DNA from: Klebsiella pneumoniae
GTDB lineage: Bacteria > Pseudomonadota > Gammaproteobacteria > Pseudomonadales > Azotimanducaceae
NCBI GenBank assembly: GCA_945861675.1
Contig: CAMAVY010000003.1
Location: 1-64,000, forward strand
DNA length: 64,000 nucleotides
Direction: 5' to 3'
Positions 19,377-27,133 of this stretch are shown piece after piece. Position numbers and translations under genes: made by a program. The first letter of the stretch is position 1; the number at the start of each line of letters is the position of its first letter. Below the pieces are notes generated by a model. That model ran no database searches. It saw only the letters and a program-made list of their open reading frames with translations, and was not told the DNA's origin.

Positions 19377-21545
19377 ATGAATAAACGTGTGTTGGCTGTC
19401 GTGGCCCTGGCGCTGGTACTGCTTGGCGCGTGGTGGTTCGACCTGTTCGCGTGGTTGAACCTCGATGCCCTGGCGGCGCGCTGGGGCGAACTTGCCGCGC
19501 TGCGCGATGCCCATCCGCTGGCCGCGTACGCGCTGTACTTTGCAATCTATGTTGCAGTCGCGGGTGCTTCGCTGCCGGGCGCTGGTGTGCTGACGCTGTT
19601 GGGCGGCGCGCTGTTCGGATTGGTTGCCGGTTTCCTGCTGGTGTCCTTCGCCAGCTCGCTCGGCGCTGTGTTGGCCATGCTGCTGTCGCGTACGGTGCTT
19701 GGCGAATTCGTGCAGCGCAGGTTCGCTACCCAACTTGCAACCATCAATGAAGGTGTGGCGCGGGATGGCGCGTTCTACCTCTTCAGCCTGCGGCTGATCC
19801 CGCTGTTTCCGTTCTTTGTGGTGAACCTGGTGCTGGGGCTGACGAAGATGCCCGCGCGCCAGTTCTACGTCGTCAGTCAACTGGGGATGGTGCCGGGTAC
19901 GCTCGTGTATGTGTTTGCGGGCACTGAGCTTGGCAAGTCGTTGGCGGGAGCAGCTGTAGCGGGTGCCGGCGGTGCCGCAGCAGGTGGTTTCAATGCCGGC
20001 GCGATTCTGACGCCAGGTCTCATTGCGGCGTTCACCCTGCTCGGGCTGTTGCCCTGGATGGCGCGCGCCGTCATGCGCCTGTTGGCAGCGCGGCGGGCTT
20101 ATCGCGGCTTCTCGAAGCCAAAGCGCTTCGATGCCAATCTCATCGTCGTCGGCGCAGGCTCGGGCGGACTGATTGCTGCGTTGATCGCCGCAACCATCAA
20201 AGCCAAGGTATATCTGATCGAACAACACAAGATGGGCGGCGACTGCCTGAACACAGGCTGTGTACCCAGCAAGGCGCTGCTGGCTTCCGCCAAGGTCGCG
20301 CAACACATGCGCGACGCGCAACGGTTCGGCATCGTGCCGGTGCAACCGCAGGTGGACTTTGCGGCGGTGATGGCGCGCGTGAAGGCGGTCATCGCACATA
20401 TCGAGCCGAAGGACTCCGTCGAGCGCTACACCAGCCTTGGCGTTGACTGCGTACAGGGCCACGCAACGTTGGTGGACCCATGGACGGTGGAAGTCGACGG
20501 ACGTCGCTTGACCGCGCGTTCCATCGTGCTTGCGAGTGGCGCCCGCCCGGCGGTACCGCCCATTCCCGGCCTCGACAAAGTCGACTACCTGACCTCCGAC
20601 AGCGTGTGGTCGTTGGCTGCGCTGCCGCCGCAGCTGGTCGTGCTGGGTGGTGGTCCGATTGGCTGTGAGCTGGCGCAGGCATTCGCGCGGCTGGGTTCGC
20701 AGGTCACCATTGTCGACATGCTGGATCGCCTGTTGCCGCGCGAAGATGCAGAAGTATCCAGTTACATCGAACGCAAACTACACAGCGAGGGTGTGCGCGT
20801 GTGCACAGGTCACGGTGCAGCAGGCGTTGAACCAGGCAAGCTGTTGCTCAAAGGTCCGCAGGGTGATGTGCAGATCCCCTTCACGCATCTGTTGGTGGCG
20901 GTGGGTCGCAAGCCGAACAGCGAGCAACTGGGCTTGGAGAAGCTGGGCATCCGCACACAGCGCAACGGTGCTGTGGAAGTTGACGAACGCCTGGCGACTG
21001 CCGTGCCCAACATCTTTGCCTGCGGTGATCTGGTCGGGCCCTATCAGTTCACACACATGGCGTCGCATCAGGCCTGGTATGCGGCGGTCAATGGTCTGTT
21101 TCGTGGCTTCTGGAGCTTTCGCGCGAACTATCGCGTGGTGCCGTGGGCAACGTTTACCGATCCGGAAATTGCACAGGTGGGTTTGAATGAACGCGCTGCA
21201 GCGGAACGTGGCGTCGCCTATGAAGTGACACGCTTCGGCTTCGATGATCTCGACCGCGCGCTGGCCGAAGGCGAGTCCGAGGGCTGGTTGAAGGTGCTCA
21301 CTCGGCCGGGCAGCGATGAAATTCTCGGTGTCACCATCGTGGGTCCGCACGCTGGTGAGCTGATCGCCGAAGCCGTGCTGGCAATGACGCATCGCATGGG
21401 TCTGGGCAAACTGATGGCGGCCATTCACGTGTATCCAACCATGATGGAGGCGCACAAGATGGCGGCGGGCAGCTGGCGGCGCGCACGCGCGCCACAGGGT
21501 CTGCTGGCGTTTGCCGGTCGGCTGCATGCAGCGTTACGTGGATGA
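19377..21545 (+). CDS. TVP38/DedA-like membrane domain fused to a mercuric-reductase-like flavoprotein
   Basis: The 722-residue protein joins two known modules. Residues 1-235 form a VTT (TVP38/TMEM64) membrane domain with about five helices and the motif GASLPGAGVLTLLGGALFG, a fold implicated in lipid scrambling and transport. Residues 250-722 form a class I pyridine nucleotide-disulfide oxidoreductase with FAD-binding VGAGSGGLIAAL, redox-active Cys290 and Cys295 in GGDCLNTGCVPSKALL, NAD-binding LGGGPIGCELAQAFARLGS, ACGDL, and the C-terminal HVYPTMMEAHK dimer motif. Such fusions occur in other proteobacteria. The extra cysteine pair of true mercuric reductases is absent. The substrate is unknown; a membrane electron-transfer role is plausible. 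Confidence 0.92.
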   Translation: MNKRVLAVVALALVLLGAWWFDLFAWLNLDALAARWGELAALRDAHPLAAYALYFAIYVAVAGASLPGAGVLTLLGGALFGLVAGFLLVSFASSLGAVLAMLLSRTVLGEFVQRRFATQLATINEGVARDGAFYLFSLRLIPLFPFFVVNLVLGLTKMPARQFYVVSQLGMVPGTLVYVFAGTELGKSLAGAAVAGAGGAAAGGFNAGAILTPGLIAAFTLLGLLPWMARAVMRLLAARRAYRGFSKPKRFDANLIVVGAGSGGLIAALIAATIKAKVYLIEQHKMGGDCLNTGCVPSKALLASAKVAQHMRDAQRFGIVPVQPQVDFAAVMARVKAVIAHIEPKDSVERYTSLGVDCVQGHATLVDPWTVEVDGRRLTARSIVLASGARPAVPPIPGLDKVDYLTSDSVWSLAALPPQLVVLGGGPIGCELAQAFARLGSQVTIVDMLDRLLPREDAEVSSYIERKLHSEGVRVCTGHGAAGVEPGKLLLKGPQGDVQIPFTHLLVAVGRKPNSEQLGLEKLGIRTQRNGAVEVDERLATAVPNIFACGDLVGPYQFTHMASHQAWYAAVNGLFRGFWSFRANYRVVPWATFTDPEIAQVGLNERAAAERGVAYEVTRFGFDDLDRALAEGESEGWLKVLTRPGSDEILGVTIVGPHAGELIAEAVLAMTHRMGLGKLMAAIHVYPTMMEAHKMAAGSWRRARAPQGLLAFAGRLHAALRG

Positions 21546-21689
21546 ACGCCTACGCGAGGTAGGGCGCGCCGCCTACGGCGTCATGCGCGTCCGCAGTCGC
21601 TGTGGTGCCGCTGAATGGCATTAGGATGGCGCGGCGCATCAACGGCAATGACGTGCCTGCTGCTCCGAAGTGAACGAACCAGCCCAGTT

Positions 21690-21845
21690 GCTCTAGAGAA
21701 CAAAAAAGTCGCGCTAGAGAACAAAAAAGTCGCGCTAGAGAACAAAAAAGTCGCGCGAGAAAACAAAAGTCGCGCAAGAGAACAAAAGTCGCGCAAGAGA
21801 ACAAAAGTCGCTCTGGAGAATGCAAGCCGCTCTAGAGAACAGGAG
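21690..21845. repeat. eight-unit 19/21-bp tandem array upstream of a lysozyme gene
   Basis: Units resemble gcgctagagaacaaaaaagtc. The first three are 21 bases, the next three 19 bases (two A residues fewer), and the last two are degenerate; the final unit supplies the AGGAGAGG ribosome binding site of the lysozyme gene at 21841-21848. The array is much richer in A than its surroundings. It occupies half of the 308-base gap after the VTT fusion gene. There are no unique spacers, so it is not a CRISPR. Confidence 0.85.
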
Positions 21846-21853
21846 AGGGTGCG

Positions 21854-22690
21854 ATGCCTGCCGACGCTGATCGCTCAGCACGTAGTCTCCGGGCGGCCGC
21901 GGTTCCACCTCGACGTCAGCGCATTGTCCGGCGTCTGCTGCGTTACGTGGTGAGTCTGATTGCGTTCGCACTCACGGCGGCCGGGGTCATGGCGATTGCT
22001 GCAATTTATTCCCGTCATCAGTTGGCGGCGCCTGGCCAGACCCGCTTCGCCGTGCAGGGCGTGGATGTATCGCACCACCAGGGCAGGATCGACTGGGTGG
22101 CGCTTGCGGCCAGCGACGTGCAGTTCGCCTTCATCAAGGCGACAGAAGGCACGGACCATCGCGACACGATGTTCGAACGCAACTGGTCGGAAAGTGCGGC
22201 GGCGGGCGTGCAGCGCGGCGCGTACCACTTCTTTACGTTCTGCTCGGCGGGTGCGGCGCAGGCTGCCCACGTGATTGAGGTCGTGCGCCCTGGTCAGGCC
22301 ATGCTGCCGCCGGCCGTAGATGTGGAATATTCGGGCAATTGTGCGAACCCGCCGCCCGTTGAGCGCATTCGCGACGAACTGCGCACCATGTTGCAGGACC
22401 TGACGGTTGCTTATGGGCGCAAGCCGATCCTCTACACCACCAACGAGGCACGTGTGCGGTTGTTGCGGGGCGCGTTCAGCGAGTATCCGTTGTGGATTCG
22501 CAACGTTTACGCACCGCCCTGGTCGTTGGGCGTTACGCAGTGGACATTCTGGCAACACAGCGATGACGGCCAGCGCGACGGCGTGCGCACGCAGGTCGAT
22601 CTGAACGTCTTTTACGGTGATCTGGCGAGCTTTCGCGCCTGCGTGCAACTGGGCGCTTGTGTTCCGGAACTGCCTCGCGCGTCAGGCTGA
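21854..22690 (+). CDS. membrane-anchored GH25 lysozyme (muramidase)
   Basis: GH25 enzymes cleave the beta-1,4 bond between N-acetylmuramic acid and N-acetylglucosamine in peptidoglycan. The 278-residue protein has a basic N-terminus, one membrane segment (about 31-52) and then the GH25 domain with GVDVSHHQGRIDW (Asp71), FAFIKATEGTDHRD, YHFFTFC and the catalytic pair in AVDVEYSGNC (Asp156, Glu158), ending with TFWQHSDDGQRDGV. The N-terminal anchor would place the enzyme in the periplasm. Its ribosome binding site lies in the last unit of a tandem array, so changes in that array could affect translation. It converges on a VOC gene, with a 5-bp repeat in between. Confidence 0.92.
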   Translation: MPADADRSARSLRAAAVPPRRQRIVRRLLRYVVSLIAFALTAAGVMAIAAIYSRHQLAAPGQTRFAVQGVDVSHHQGRIDWVALAASDVQFAFIKATEGTDHRDTMFERNWSESAAAGVQRGAYHFFTFCSAGAAQAAHVIEVVRPGQAMLPPAVDVEYSGNCANPPPVERIRDELRTMLQDLTVAYGRKPILYTTNEARVRLLRGAFSEYPLWIRNVYAPPWSLGVTQWTFWQHSDDGQRDGVRTQVDLNVFYGDLASFRACVQLGACVPELPRASG

Positions 22691-22717: not shown

Positions 22718-23131
22718 TCAACTTTGCACTTCGTCGTAGCCGCGCCCCAGCAGCTGGATCAGGCAGATGCCGTGGCCGAACGGATCGGCCAGGCCGGCGA
22801 TGCGTCCCCATGAGTAGTCGTGGATCTCGCGCTCAAGCACCGCGCCCGCGTCCGTGGCGGCGGTTACCGCCTTTTCGATGTCGGGCACCACCAAGTCGAG
22901 GTGCACCGGCGTCCAGTGCCGCCGATAGTCGCGCTGTTGTGCCTCGCCCGCGTTCGAGGCCGAGCCGGCCGCGTGGCTCAACAGGTGCAGCGTGCTGCCG
23001 CCGCCGGTGAGTTCGGCAACGCGCCCGGCAAACAGTCGCCGGCGCAGCTGCAGGCCGAGGCCAAGCGTGTAGAACTGGATGGCTCGATCGAGGTCGTCGA
23101 CGTCAACGTTGATGTAGATCTGGCTGGTCAC
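22718..23131 (-). CDS. VOC-family (glyoxalase/bleomycin resistance-like) protein
   Basis: The 137-residue protein is one vicinal-oxygen-chelate unit: beta-alpha-beta-beta-beta modules with IYINVDVDDLDRAIQFYT, LHLLSHAAGS, PVHLDLVVPDIEKAVTAA and ADPFGHGICLIQL. The metal-ligand positions typical of the fold (His in VHLDLV and Glu-like positions late in each module) seem partly kept. I chose GTG 23131, which has GGGGT in front and begins right before the fold; the longer frame to 23209 has no matching family sequence. Substrate unknown. Members act as lyases, dioxygenases or drug-binding proteins. Confidence 0.82.
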   Translation of the reverse strand: MTSQIYINVDVDDLDRAIQFYTLGLGLQLRRRLFAGRVAELTGGGSTLHLLSHAAGSASNAGEAQQRDYRRHWTPVHLDLVVPDIEKAVTAATDAGAVLEREIHDYSWGRIAGLADPFGHGICLIQLLGRGYDEVQS

Positions 23132-23385
23132 TAACACCCCAATAGGAAAGCAGCAGTCGGCCGTCTGCGCGCGGCGGGCCGAATCGCTACCCGTCGAGCA
23201 TGAGCGCAAGGGGGCAGCGTGCGTCGCGATCGCGGCGGCGACAATCTATGTCAGAACGGATTTCCGACGCAATCTCCGAAAGTGGTTTGTCCCGAAGATC
23301 ATGAAATTCAATCCATCTGAATACATACCTTGAATAGTTCAATGTTCCGGGCTCAAATTCGGCCACCAAGCCTTGAGCACTTGCC

Positions 23386-24720
23386 ATGAACGAAGCAATC
23401 AGCCGGATTCACAAGCTGCGAGCCGAAGGGCGTCTATCGGAGATGGAAGCGGCAGAGCTGCTCAACGCCCTTGGGCACCGTGACCGATCTGCAGAGGACG
23501 GTGCGGCGCCTGCTGGCATGGCGCACCGCGAGCAGGCCGACGCGCCGCGCGCTCAGCACCACAGCCAGCATGAGCCATCCCCGCCCGACCCCGCCCCGCC
23601 CGACCCCGCCCCGCCCGACCCCGCCCAGCCCGACCCCGCCCGGCACGACCACAGCCAGAAGGGCGCCGGACAAAACGCTCAGCAGCCTGGCGGTGAAGCC
23701 TGGTGGGGCCTCGGCGACGATCCGCGCGAAACATTTCGCGCCGCATTGAAGGTGGGTGCTGAGGCGTGGCGTGAAAGCCGGCGTGGCACCTCGTCCAACG
23801 GTCCGGATGTGGCCGCCGCAATGGGGCACTTCAGGGCGCGTGGGCGCGGCAGGTCGAAGCAGTGGTCCACGCGCTGGCTGAACGATTCCAATCGTGTGGT
23901 CATGTCCAGTGTGGTGGTGCCCGAAGGCGACCAGTTCAGGTGTGAGGACAACGAGATCTCGGTGTCCGGGCTCAGTGGCCTGCTGTTCAAGGTGGCCGAG
24001 TTCAATGGCAACCGGCTGCGTGCCGCTTCGCTCAACGCGCTGACCCTCGAGGACGGCATTTTCCGCAATCAGCAGGTGAACGGCTCTTCGTTGCGCCGCA
24101 TTCATCTGCAGCGCGGCATGCTGCGCGACAACCAGTTCAACGGCAGCAGCGTTGCGCGGCTTACGCTGCGCGGCAGCCAGCTCACCAACAGCGTGTGTAA
24201 CGGCGTGCACCTGCGCGGCATGGAAATCGTGGACAGCGCGGTGGCTGGTCTGCGCATTACCGGTGGCGATCTGCGCGACATTGCCGTGCTGGCCGGTTCG
24301 CGCGTTGATGAGCTGCAGATCAAGGCTGCCACACTGCACGGTCTTAGTTGTGCTGCGAGCGTGCTTGATGCGCTGTCGCTCAGCTTCATCAAGGTGCGCG
24401 GGCTGACTGTGCGGGACAGTCGACTCACGCGCGTGCGCCTGCACAATGGTGAGCGGAATGGTGAGCGGAATGGTGAGCGGAATGGTGAGCGGAATGGTGA
24501 GCGCATGCGGCGCGGCAATGCCGCGGTGCGTGACCTGCAGGTTCTGAACAGCAAGCTGACTGACGTTGAGTTTGTGGACTGCAACTTCGACGGCGCCTGC
24601 ATTCGTGATTGTGATGTGCAGGGCCTGATGTTCGATGGCGTCGACTTCGGGTCGCGCACTATCGTGGGCAATCGCATGCTCGAAGCCTTCGCCACTGCGC
24701 CGGCACGCCGTCATGGTTGA
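23386..24720 (+). CDS. SHOCT-like protein with beta-helix-like repeats
   Basis: The 444-residue protein begins with a short helical module, ISRIHKLRAEGRLSEMEAAEL, like the SHOCT motif that ends or begins many bacterial membrane-stress and oligomerising proteins. A spacer with four 15-bp repeats (PDPAP) follows. From about residue 160 there is a long run of imperfect roughly 20-residue units such as FNGNRLRAASLNALTLEDG and FNGSSVARLTLRGSQL, suggesting a right-handed beta-helix (pentapeptide or DUF4097-like). A second in-frame array (five 12-bp units encoding NGER) interrupts it. There is no signal peptide. The stop overlaps the next gene, a DUF2089 regulator, so they work together. Specific function unknown. 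The 254-base upstream region is AT-rich and likely holds the promoter. Confidence 0.75.
   Translation: MNEAISRIHKLRAEGRLSEMEAAELLNALGHRDRSAEDGAAPAGMAHREQADAPRAQHHSQHEPSPPDPAPPDPAPPDPAQPDPARHDHSQKGAGQNAQQPGGEAWWGLGDDPRETFRAALKVGAEAWRESRRGTSSNGPDVAAAMGHFRARGRGRSKQWSTRWLNDSNRVVMSSVVVPEGDQFRCEDNEISVSGLSGLLFKVAEFNGNRLRAASLNALTLEDGIFRNQQVNGSSLRRIHLQRGMLRDNQFNGSSVARLTLRGSQLTNSVCNGVHLRGMEIVDSAVAGLRITGGDLRDIAVLAGSRVDELQIKAATLHGLSCAASVLDALSLSFIKVRGLTVRDSRLTRVRLHNGERNGERNGERNGERNGERMRRGNAAVRDLQVLNSKLTDVEFVDCNFDGACIRDCDVQGLMFDGVDFGSRTIVGNRMLEAFATAPARRHG
23581..23640. repeat. four in-frame 15-bp repeats encoding a Pro-Asp-Pro-Ala linker
   Basis: The unit ccgcccgaccccgcc occurs three times perfectly and once with a single change. 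Because the period is 15 it only changes linker length between the SHOCT-like head and the beta-helix-like part of the encoded protein. Confidence 0.85.
24445..24504. repeat. five in-frame 12-bp repeats encoding Asn-Gly-Glu-Arg
   Basis: The unit aatggtgagcgg is repeated four times perfectly, and a fifth copy differs at one base. The array adds a charged loop within the beta-helix-like domain without changing frame. Confidence 0.85.
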
Positions 24721-25189
24721 TCCGAGCCCAATGCATGGACCAGCACTCGGACCAATTCACGGGCTCGATATGCCGTGCCCGTCGTGTCACAGGCCGATGC
24801 AGGTGTGCGCGCTCGCCTGCCGTCAGTGCGACCTGCACATCGAGGGCAACTTCAAGGGCAACGAATTCGCTGACCTGCCTGCTGAACACCTGCAGCTGTT
24901 GCGCGTGTTCGTGCATTGCGAGGGCCGCATTCGCGACATGGAAAAGGTGTTGGGCGTCAGCTACCCAACGGTGAAGAACCGCATCGCGGCGATGCGAACA
25001 CATGTGGGCTTGAACAGCGCCGTGTCTGATGGGTCTGAAAGGTCTGACGCGCCGGCGGCTGCGCCAAGGCAGGATGGCGCTGAAACGAACGCGCTTGCAG
25101 TACTCGATGCGCTGGAGCGCGGCGAGATAGACCATGCGCGCGCGGTCGCCGACTTGCAGGCAGCCGCAGGCGCGCGCTCGCCCAGGTAA
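24713..25189 (+). CDS. DUF2089 zinc-ribbon/HTH protein
   Basis: The 158-residue protein has a zinc-ribbon with two CxxC pairs (CPSCH and CRQCD, about residues 23-44) followed by FADLPAEHLQLLRVFVHCEG and a helix-turn-helix MEKVLGVSYPTVKNRIAAM, the standard DUF2089 pattern. A C-terminal helical segment (ALAVLDALERGEIDHARAVADL) resembles the SHOCT-like module in the partner gene. ATG 24713 overlaps the upstream stop by eight bases, so expression is coupled. DUF2089 proteins are predicted transcription regulators, often beside SHOCT/DUF4097 genes, and probably sense envelope or cytoplasmic stress; this last point is inference. Confidence 0.88.
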   Translation: MVDPSPMHGPALGPIHGLDMPCPSCHRPMQVCALACRQCDLHIEGNFKGNEFADLPAEHLQLLRVFVHCEGRIRDMEKVLGVSYPTVKNRIAAMRTHVGLNSAVSDGSERSDAPAAAPRQDGAETNALAVLDALERGEIDHARAVADLQAAAGARSPR

Positions 25190-25258
25190 CAGGACGGGGC
25201 AGTAGGACGAGGCAGCCTGACTCAGTTCAGGCGGACTACCGGAACGACCCGCACACGG

Positions 25259-27133
25259 CTAGATAGCAATGCGGGTGCCGAGCTCAATCACACTGTTGTG
25301 CGGGATGTTGAAGTAGTTCACGGCGCTGCTCGCATTCCGATACATGGCGGCAAACACTTCCTCGCGCCACTGCTGCATGCCGCTGCCGTGGGTAGATACG
25401 ATGGTCTGGCGATTGATGAAGAACGAGGTCGAGAACATATCGATCTCAAGGCCAAGCTTGGCGCAGGCTTTGAGGTTCTCGGGCACATCGGGGTTTTCCA
25501 TATAGCCGAAGTTCAGCGTGGCCCGATAGAAGCCAAAGTCCAGCGGTTCAACGGTGGCGCGCTCCTCGACGGCGATCACCGGCACCTCGTGAAACACCAC
25601 GGTCAGCAGCACGTTGCGCTCGTGCAGCACCATGTTGTGCTTGAGGTTGTGCAGCATCGCGCGCGGTGTGCCTTCGGTGTCTGACATCAGGAACACAGCG
25701 GTACGTGGCACGCGGGGAATGGGTTCCAGCATCAGGCTGCGCACAAACGGCTCCAGGGCCAGCTCGTCTGCGCCACCCGCGCCTGTCGCCAGGCGTCTGC
25801 CGGTACGCCAGGTGGACATCAGCAGCAGAATCGACAACGCGATGGACGCGGTGAACCAACCGCCATCGAGCAACTTGGTTGCGCAGGCTGCGACCAGTAG
25901 CCCGTCAATGACGAGAAACGCTGCGAGCGCGGGCCAGGCGACGGCGCCTGGCACATTCCAGCGATACAGCGCAACACAGAACAACAACAGTGTGTCGATG
26001 AGCATGGCCAGCGTGACGGCGGTGCCGTAGGCGCCCGCCAGTGCCGAGGATGTGCCGAAACCGATTGCTGCAGTCAGCACGGCGAACATCAGCATCCAGT
26101 TGATGTGCGGCATGTAGATCTGCCCGCGCAAATGATGTGATGTGTGCACGATGGGCATGCGCGGCAGGAAGCCCAGCTGGATGGCCTGCTGCGTGATGGA
26201 GTAGGCACCGGTGATGACCGCCTGTGACGCAATGATTGCGGCCGCCGCCGCCAGCACGACCACCGGAATCAGCAGCGCATCTGGAAACATGCGATAGAAC
26301 GGTGTGTCTGCGTACTCGGGATGGTCGAGCAGCATTGCGCCTTGCCCGAGATAGTTCAGCGCAAGGCAGGGCAGCACAACCAAAGACCAGGCGTAGCGAA
26401 TGGAGCGTGCGCCAAAGTGCCCCATGTCGGCGTACAGCGCCTCGGCACCCGTGATGGCCAGCACGATGGCAGCGAGCGCCAACAGAATGGCTGGGCCGCG
26501 ATCCGCAAGAAAACCGAAGGCGTATATGGGGTTCAATGCCAGCAGAATTTCTGGCGAGTCGAAGATGTGCCAGAGGCCGATCAGCCCGAGCAGACTGAAC
26601 CAGGCCAGCATGACGGGCCCAAACATCCGGCCCACGGCCTCTGTGCCTCGCCGTTGCACCAGAAACAGCGCGACCAGGATCACAACCGAGATCGGCAGGA
26701 CATACGCGGACAAAGCCGGCGCGGCGAGTTCAAGCCCCTCGACGGCACCCAGTACGGACACTGCTGGCGTAATGACGCTGTCCCCATAGAACAGTGCCGC
26801 GCCGAGCGCGCCCAGGAAGAACAGTATTTCCCGACGTTTGTGCGAGCGTCCGGCGGCCACCAATGCCAGCGACAGCATGGACATCACGCCGCCCTCGCCA
26901 CGGTTGTCTGCCCGCAGCACCAGCACCACGTACTTCAGTGTGACGATCAGCATCAACGCCCAGAAAATCGTGGAGACCGCGCCAGTGATGCCGGCCGGGT
27001 CCACCGCCACACCACCGGCGCCGAAGATCTCCTTCATTGTGTACAGCGGGCTGGTACCAATATCGCCGTACACCACACCGATCGCACCCAAGGTGAGTGC
27101 GCGAGTCGTCTGCGGGTTTGAAGACTGAGTCAT
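25259..27133 (-). CDS. kup: potassium uptake protein Kup
   Basis: Kup is a proton-coupled potassium importer of the inner membrane. The 624-residue length is standard. The N-terminal signature GVVYGDIGTSPLYTMKEIF is present, followed by about twelve membrane segments (for example PVVVLAAAAAIIASQAVITGAYS) and a cytoplasmic C-terminal region with VPRTAVFLMSDTEGTPRAML, HNLKHNMVLHERNV and FNIPHNSVIELG. ATG 27133 is chosen because the family sequence starts there. The frame is open further upstream but crosses the region where the divergent gene's promoter must lie. Confidence 0.96.
   Translation of the reverse strand: MTQSSNPQTTRALTLGAIGVVYGDIGTSPLYTMKEIFGAGGVAVDPAGITGAVSTIFWALMLIVTLKYVVLVLRADNRGEGGVMSMLSLALVAAGRSHKRREILFFLGALGAALFYGDSVITPAVSVLGAVEGLELAAPALSAYVLPISVVILVALFLVQRRGTEAVGRMFGPVMLAWFSLLGLIGLWHIFDSPEILLALNPIYAFGFLADRGPAILLALAAIVLAITGAEALYADMGHFGARSIRYAWSLVVLPCLALNYLGQGAMLLDHPEYADTPFYRMFPDALLIPVVVLAAAAAIIASQAVITGAYSITQQAIQLGFLPRMPIVHTSHHLRGQIYMPHINWMLMFAVLTAAIGFGTSSALAGAYGTAVTLAMLIDTLLLFCVALYRWNVPGAVAWPALAAFLVIDGLLVAACATKLLDGGWFTASIALSILLLMSTWRTGRRLATGAGGADELALEPFVRSLMLEPIPRVPRTAVFLMSDTEGTPRAMLHNLKHNMVLHERNVLLTVVFHEVPVIAVEERATVEPLDFGFYRATLNFGYMENPDVPENLKACAKLGLEIDMFSTSFFINRQTIVSTHGSGMQQWREEVFAAMYRNASSAVNYFNIPHNSVIELGTRIAI

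Follow-up and report, generated by a model that had tools for sequence, protein, structure and literature searches.

What does a cytoplasmic-looking beta-helical protein do when its gene overlaps that of a DNA-binding regulator? This question is raised by a two-gene locus in contig CAMAVY010000003.1 of assembly GCA_945861675.1 (GTDB family Azotimanducaceae), of which we analysed positions 1 to 64,000, a 64,000-nucleotide stretch that we refer to as the window. We propose, at a probability of roughly 60%, that the locus forms a self-regulated two-gene signalling operon in which a DUF2089 regulator (gene 2) is tuned by a partner that joins a SHOCT-like head to a pentapeptide-repeat beta-helix (gene 1, hereafter a SHOCT-penta protein). 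The anatomy of the pair as first described was confirmed, including the eight-base overlap that the first-pass annotation had reported, as the coordinates of the open reading frame listing place the two genes as follows, with the letters ATGGTTGA shared between them.

23386–24720, forward strand: gene 1, SHOCT-like plus pentapeptide-repeat beta-helix protein of 444 residues (open reading frame, Pfam, AlphaFold2)
24713–25189, forward strand: gene 2, DUF2089 regulator of 158 residues with its ATG at 24713 (Pfam, AlphaFold2)

Co-inheritance of the two genes

Within the window's family (206 genomes), a strong SHOCT-penta match was present in 18 genomes; 16 had the matching DUF2089 type, and in 15 the two genes were adjacent (Fisher 5.6e-19, a value that ignores relatedness). 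To look beyond the family, we surveyed named genomes, examining the neighbourhoods of the best 80 of 261 DUF2089 loci retrieved; penta-partnered proteins predominated in the query, so that the sample favours their type. Here a SHOCT-penta gene directly adjoined the DUF2089 gene in 35 of the 80 loci across five or six phyla (all 35 labelled as metagenome bins), and it did so in both gene orders, with the SHOCT-penta gene first in 14 Pseudomonadota loci and the DUF2089 gene first in 21 others (Bdellovibrionota 9, Fibrobacterota 6, Planctomycetota 2, Spirochaetota 2, Myxococcota 1 and unlabelled 1). Such a survey had been suggested in the first-pass annotation, which held that a lack of co-occurrence in other genomes would count against a link between the two genes; what emerged instead was a partner that recurs in the family and across the sampled loci alike.

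Partner type also follows the ancestry of the regulator. On a tree of 81 DUF2089 proteins (one alignment set comprised 50 of the 81), the 36 penta-partnered proteins, the window's included, fell on one side of a single branch (Shimodaira–Hasegawa-like approximate likelihood ratio test [SH-aLRT] support of 99), such that partner type required one change as compared with about 27 under shuffled labels, on what was a quick tree built from few columns. Given co-inheritance across phyla, adjacency in both orders, this single partner switch and the similar helical modules described below, we regard a functional coupling of the pair as strongly supported by the comparative sequence evidence.

A class-wide search for SHOCT-penta proteins at E 1e-25 returned 4 of 369 genomes, the window's own among them, and the three other matches proved to be ordinary pentapeptide proteins whose N-termini, judged by eye, carry no SHOCT-like head. 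An alignment-based DUF2089 search of the same class sample matched 7 of 369 genomes, and the zinc-ribbon family was found in 3 of 249 genomes of a phylum sample. As variations on the arrangement, one locus (L027:4417-6690) carries two different SHOCT-penta genes in tandem followed by one DUF2089 gene, giving one regulator with two beta-helix partners, and another (L031:5388-5768, genome 85% complete) has a penta-type DUF2089 gene with no partner alongside.

A candidate operator shared by both partner types

The first-pass annotation had guessed at a promoter region in 23132–23385, and this region holds a conserved candidate operator in two copies; a terminator scan of 23130–25300 returned none.

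23298–23312, no strand assigned: candidate operator copy 1, ATCATGAAATTCAAT, agreeing with 8 of the 10 defined positions of ATTRA-N5-TYAAT
23329–23343, no strand assigned: candidate operator copy 2, CTTGAATAGTTCAAT, agreeing with 9 of 10, 31 bp after copy 1, with the ATG 42 bp further on

These analyses covered 34 of the 36 penta loci, including the window (L061 and L079 were omitted for missing upstream sequence), and 41 of the 45 non-penta loci, namely those with more than 150 bases upstream. A dyad search of the 220 bp upstream of the 34 penta operons found ATTAA-N5-TTAAT in 13 of them; in 30 shuffles no dyad reached more than 3. Derived in this way from the penta regions and then counted in the non-penta set, the exact motif lay within 150 bp upstream of 10 of 20 DUF2089-first penta operons (mean 0.14 in local-composition shuffles), 3 of 14 Pseudomonadota operons (shuffle mean 0.04) and 13 of 41 non-penta operons (shuffle mean 0.54). 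Gaps other than five reached at most 2, 1 and 8 in these three sets, respectively, revealing a preference for the five-base gap. Exact sites were concentrated upstream, with 16 in 5.1 kb against 2 in the remaining 375 kb of the penta loci, and 15 in 6.15 kb against 4 in the remaining 371 kb of the non-penta loci, where one of the 4 (L113) is really upstream of its DUF2089 gene. Since the exact copies elsewhere in the loci mostly lie within or at the start of unrelated genes, no regulon was seen.

Relaxing the motif to accept G in place of A and C in place of T gives the degenerate form ATTRA-N5-TYAAT, which was defined after inspecting these sequences. At a match of at least 9 of 10 positions it occurred upstream of 26 of the 34 penta operons and 39 of the 41 non-penta ones, as compared with 3 of 183 control promoters from the same loci (1 of 183 for a perfect match). 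One might suppose that the repeat is a general feature of AT-rich promoters and no DUF2089 operator at all, the two genes being held together by operon inheritance alone. The upstream regions are AT-rich (62% in penta and 73% in non-penta operons) and the motif is weak in distant loci, both of which fit this explanation, but AT-matched control promoters carried a site with 9 or more matching positions in only 1 of 38 cases as compared with 14 of the 20 DUF2089-first penta operons. Together with the gap preference, the near-absence of the motif elsewhere in the loci and its appearance in the non-penta set after having been found in the penta set, this leads us to consider the explanation improbable.

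The arrangement of the sites is likewise patterned. Tandem sites 30–32 bp apart occurred in 9 of 13 Pseudomonadota operons other than the window (shuffle mean 0.32, maximum 2), and sites 20–22 bp apart in 12 of 20 DUF2089-first penta and 36 of 41 non-penta operons; in the AT-rich sets other spacings are also more frequent than in shuffles, so it is in Pseudomonadota that the phasing stands out best. Searching the window's own 4.88-Mb genome for its tandem pattern with up to 3 mismatches returned a single place, 23298–23343, and a reversed-pattern control was found nowhere in that genome. In a few loci (L058, L064 and L053) the site stands right after TTGACA and occupies the spacer of a promoter-like hexamer pair, which suggests repression. 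Conserved as it is ahead of both kinds of operon, the 15-bp inverted repeat is our candidate operator across much of the DUF2089 group, and we see in it the most useful new lead from this locus.

A helical module and an exchanged beta-helix

How the two proteins might communicate depends on their architecture, which comprises the following parts.

23386–23499, forward strand: SHOCT-like bihelical head of gene 1, residues 1–38 (AlphaFold2 helices 2–13 and 19–36; head–tail profile match)
23579–23650, forward strand: 15-bp tandem repeat coding a proline/aspartate linker (repeat scan)
23725–23775, forward strand: amphipathic helix 114–130 within the linker, of low model confidence (AlphaFold2 and sequence)
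23872–24675, forward strand: pentapeptide-repeat beta-helix, residues 163–430 (Pfam, periodicity, AlphaFold2, fold search)
24445–24503, forward strand: insert in the beta-helix, encoded by about 4.9 copies of a perfect 12-bp tandem repeat (NGER), with a predicted local distance difference test (pLDDT) score of about 54–62 (repeat scan)
24776–24871, forward strand: zinc ribbon of gene 2 (PF22747, 36.9 bits against a cut-off of 27.6)
24875–25006, forward strand: helix-turn-helix of gene 2 (PF09862, 56.6 bits against a cut-off of 33.4)
25079–25171, forward strand: SHOCT-like bihelical tail of gene 2, residues 123–153 (AlphaFold2, profile match, relatives' tails)

The repeat-built linker and beta-helix-like domain that had been read from gene 1 are borne out by the 15-bp repeat, Pfam, the periodicity and the model. 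Pentapeptide_4 (PF13599) matched residues 201–275 at 45 bits (cut-off 38), a hydrophobic period of five across residues 187–365 was equalled by 0 of 2,000 shuffles, and the modelled beta-helix has pLDDT values of mostly 90–98, following a linker that is mostly disordered. The top solved fold was HetL (Z 21.7 over 217 residues, root-mean-square deviation 2.6), with EfsQnr and AlbG, of the same fold, near it. Because other, general beta-helices also matched at Z 17–19, the five-residue repeat is more specific than the fold for this assignment. This part of gene 1 is a pentapeptide-repeat domain, modelled as a right-handed quadrilateral beta-helix. The absence of a signal peptide also held, in that no signal-peptide or membrane-type hydrophobic stretch was seen in gene 1, where the top 19-residue window (1.48 on the Kyte–Doolittle scale) lies within the beta-helix. 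The NGER repeat is missing from six aligned relatives and, given also its low model confidence, may be a length-variable insert.

That EfsQnr and AlbG share this fold brings up another explanation, namely a DNA-mimicking or gyrase-protecting pentapeptide protein of the Qnr/MfpA kind that happens to be under a local regulator. A DNA mimic is expected to be strongly acidic. The window's beta-helix has a net charge of +4 and the 40 SHOCT-penta members range from -16 to +5 (a crude proxy for an acidic surface), and such a role would account neither for the SHOCT-like head nor for the exchange with Toastrack, making this the least probable of the explanations considered here.

The two proteins seem to share a small helical module. 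AlphaFold2 modelled the head of gene 1 as two helices (2–13 and 19–36, pLDDT 95–97) and the C-terminus of gene 2 as a helical pair (123–135 and 141–153). Among relatives, SHOCT-like_DUF2089-C (PF22746) matched 19 of 40 SHOCT-penta heads at E 0.01 or better (L056 and L061 being partial sequences; Pentapeptide_4 was present in all 40) and 22 of 29 DUF2089 tails at E 0.1 or better. Head and tail profiles could be aligned in collinear fashion across 30 columns (E 2e-4, probability 47%); the head profile scored at least 5 bits on 11 of 29 tails as compared with at most 1 in ten shuffles, and the tail profile picked up 7 of 39 heads as compared with at most 1 in shuffles. It is on these matches of relatives, the head–tail profile match and the models that we base the SHOCT-like label for the window's two segments. 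A Foldseek search of the DUF2089 model returned nothing under E 0.001, and the closest solved folds to its helix-turn-helix, at weak similarity, were LuxR/NarL-type and sigma region 4 domains.

Non-penta loci place this module in context. Taking as partner the first downstream frame, picked by eye, in 42 of the 45 such loci (L071, L081 and L105 were omitted as that frame was unclear), we found PF22746 in 42 of 42 partners, Toastrack (DUF4097) in 24, LiaF-like_C in 5 and DUF2807 in 3. As these other loci are mostly DUF2089 with SHOCT-like/Toastrack genes of an already published kind, the pentapeptide pair appears to be a variant with its beta-helix exchanged. Toastrack itself gave no sequence match to gene 1 at E-values up to 1, was not one of the 12 families matched by the 40 SHOCT-penta members and did not turn up in a Pfam search of the window's own genome, and none of the fold matches listed for the gene 1 model was named Toastrack, though the rows listed cannot exclude a Toastrack fold. 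At one locus of the window's family (L030:5795-7719), a DUF2089 gene has in its vicinity a small SHOCT-like gene as well as one whose product, judged by eye, resembles Toastrack, so Toastrack and pentapeptide types may coexist in one bacterial family.

The chief rival to our reading accepts autoregulation through the repeats and dispenses with partner contact, such that the SHOCT-like segments only homodimerize or anchor their own protein to the membrane and the beta-helix protein is the output rather than the sensor. The operator evidence requires no protein–protein contact, orphan SHOCT-penta genes are known, common regulation alone could also hold the genes together, and Ravi et al. 2024 (PMC11237479), in the available part of that paper, proposed SHOCT-like modules as membrane anchors. 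Against this, specific pairing is suggested by the way partner type follows one clade of the DUF2089 tree and by the SHOCT-like segment in every non-penta partner scanned, and we judge the rival unlikely, if the most serious of the alternatives.

Proposed mechanism and relation to known systems

In the self-regulated operon that we favour, the DUF2089 protein, probably as a dimer, would bind the two helically phased 15-bp inverted repeats before the operon and control its transcription, with repression the more likely sign. The SHOCT-penta protein, made together with it, would act as sensor or scaffold partner of the regulator; its N-terminal SHOCT-like bihelix would dock onto the corresponding helical pair that ends the regulator, perhaps at the inner membrane face, and its beta-helix would take in a signal or client and so alter the regulator's activity. 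By analogy, operation might be as in DUF2089/SHOCT-like/Toastrack operons, with the pentapeptide beta-helix in place of Toastrack. In this mechanism we infer direct binding, the dimer, the sign of regulation, the membrane site and the stress input or signal. A bolder version, to which we give somewhat less than even odds, would have DUF2089 proteins be widespread autoregulators with one conserved operator, made of helically phased tandem copies of ATTRA-N5-TYAAT, and a SHOCT-like socket for either of two beta-solenoids (Toastrack or pentapeptide) that would serve as interchangeable receivers of the signal, the window's beta-helix partner directly switching its regulator on or off DNA.

Several observations weigh against the signalling-operon reading. 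In the window itself, the head of gene 1, previously called SHOCT-like, scored 13.2 bits against PF22746 (cut-off 27), leaving that call to the modelled bihelix and the relatives' matches, and the gene 2 tail matched no Pfam family, so that of the earlier description of gene 2 the zinc ribbon and helix-turn-helix stand above their cut-offs, with a helical pair behind them and no Pfam SHOCT-like match of the tail's own. Eight of the 34 penta operons lack a site with 9 or more matching positions, and no consensus sigma-70 promoter was found in a scan of 23130–25300. In a held-out set of 22 more distant or set-aside rows (21 distinct loci, as L030 and L180 are the same), 11 rows carried a site with 9 or more matching positions, as compared with a mean of 2.9 and a maximum of 8 in shuffles, and no row had the exact motif. 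Finally, SHOCT-penta genes stood alone in 3 of the 206 family genomes (L131, L132 and L133, a single genus without a DUF2089 match) and the matching DUF2089 gene stood alone in 1 (G027), which implies that each gene is able to exist without the other.

The kind of system is known. Ravi et al. 2024 (mSystems, PMC11237479), in the text available, divided DUF2089 into zinc ribbon, helix-turn-helix and SHOCT-like parts, described SHOCT-like/Toastrack partners and proposed lia-like signalling from membrane to transcription. The window's pair resembles those operons in setting a zinc ribbon/helix-turn-helix regulator with a SHOCT-like tail beside a beta-helix protein with a SHOCT-like head and no signal peptide, and differs in that a pentapeptide-repeat beta-helix replaces Toastrack and only two genes are involved. 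The first-pass annotation had thought the function of such a pair undescribed, which thus does not hold for DUF2089 with SHOCT-like/Toastrack partners and does hold, as far as the literature searched, for the pentapeptide version: neither that version, nor the operator, nor any DNA site of DUF2089 regulators was found there, supplements and subscription papers being outside the search, and the available text of Ravi et al. 2024 has neither the operator nor the switch of partner seen on the tree. We therefore regard the pentapeptide partner and candidate operator as new to that extent. In two papers on leaderless bacteriocins, as far as their text was available, DUF2089 is merely listed as a cluster gene.

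Three other systems offer partial parallels. The only pentapeptide mention found in the available text of Ravi et al. 2024 (PMC11237479) concerns HAAS-pentapeptide proteins with PadR-like regulators, which likewise combine a pentapeptide domain with a small helical signalling module and adjoin a regulator, but with HAAS and PadR instead of SHOCT-like and DUF2089, and mostly in Firmicutes. The second parallel is LiaX, likewise a two-domain protein, which has been proposed to influence a regulatory system through its C-terminal part. LiaX has a SHOCT-like head and a Toastrack fold. Its C-terminal domain is proposed to inhibit its signalling system, enterococcal LiaFSR (PMC11601895, as far as available), which differs in comprising a two-component system and membrane proteins, with the N-terminal part of LiaX released outside the cell, as compared with a DUF2089 regulator and a cytoplasmic-looking protein here. 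Third is HetL, the top fold match to gene 1, as a pentapeptide beta-helix protein that binds a transcription factor, HetR, directly. To our knowledge, no relation of HetR to DUF2089 is to be expected. HetL binds HetR without blocking its DNA binding (PMC7476756, in the part available).

If our reading is true, the pair would provide another example of a transcription factor on which a pentapeptide protein acts, one in which the regulator and helical module were retained while the partner's beta-helix was exchanged. Toastrack/SHOCT-like systems are predicted membrane-stress sensors, and the candidate operator and exchanged beta-helix make their wiring testable.

Elsewhere in the window, a 722-residue frame at 19377–21545 resembles, judged by eye, a fusion of a TVP38-type membrane domain with a disulfide reductase-like flavoprotein. 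Positions 21615–21760 hold short repeats, with ALENKKV several times in one frame, upstream of a GH25-like frame at 21854–22690.
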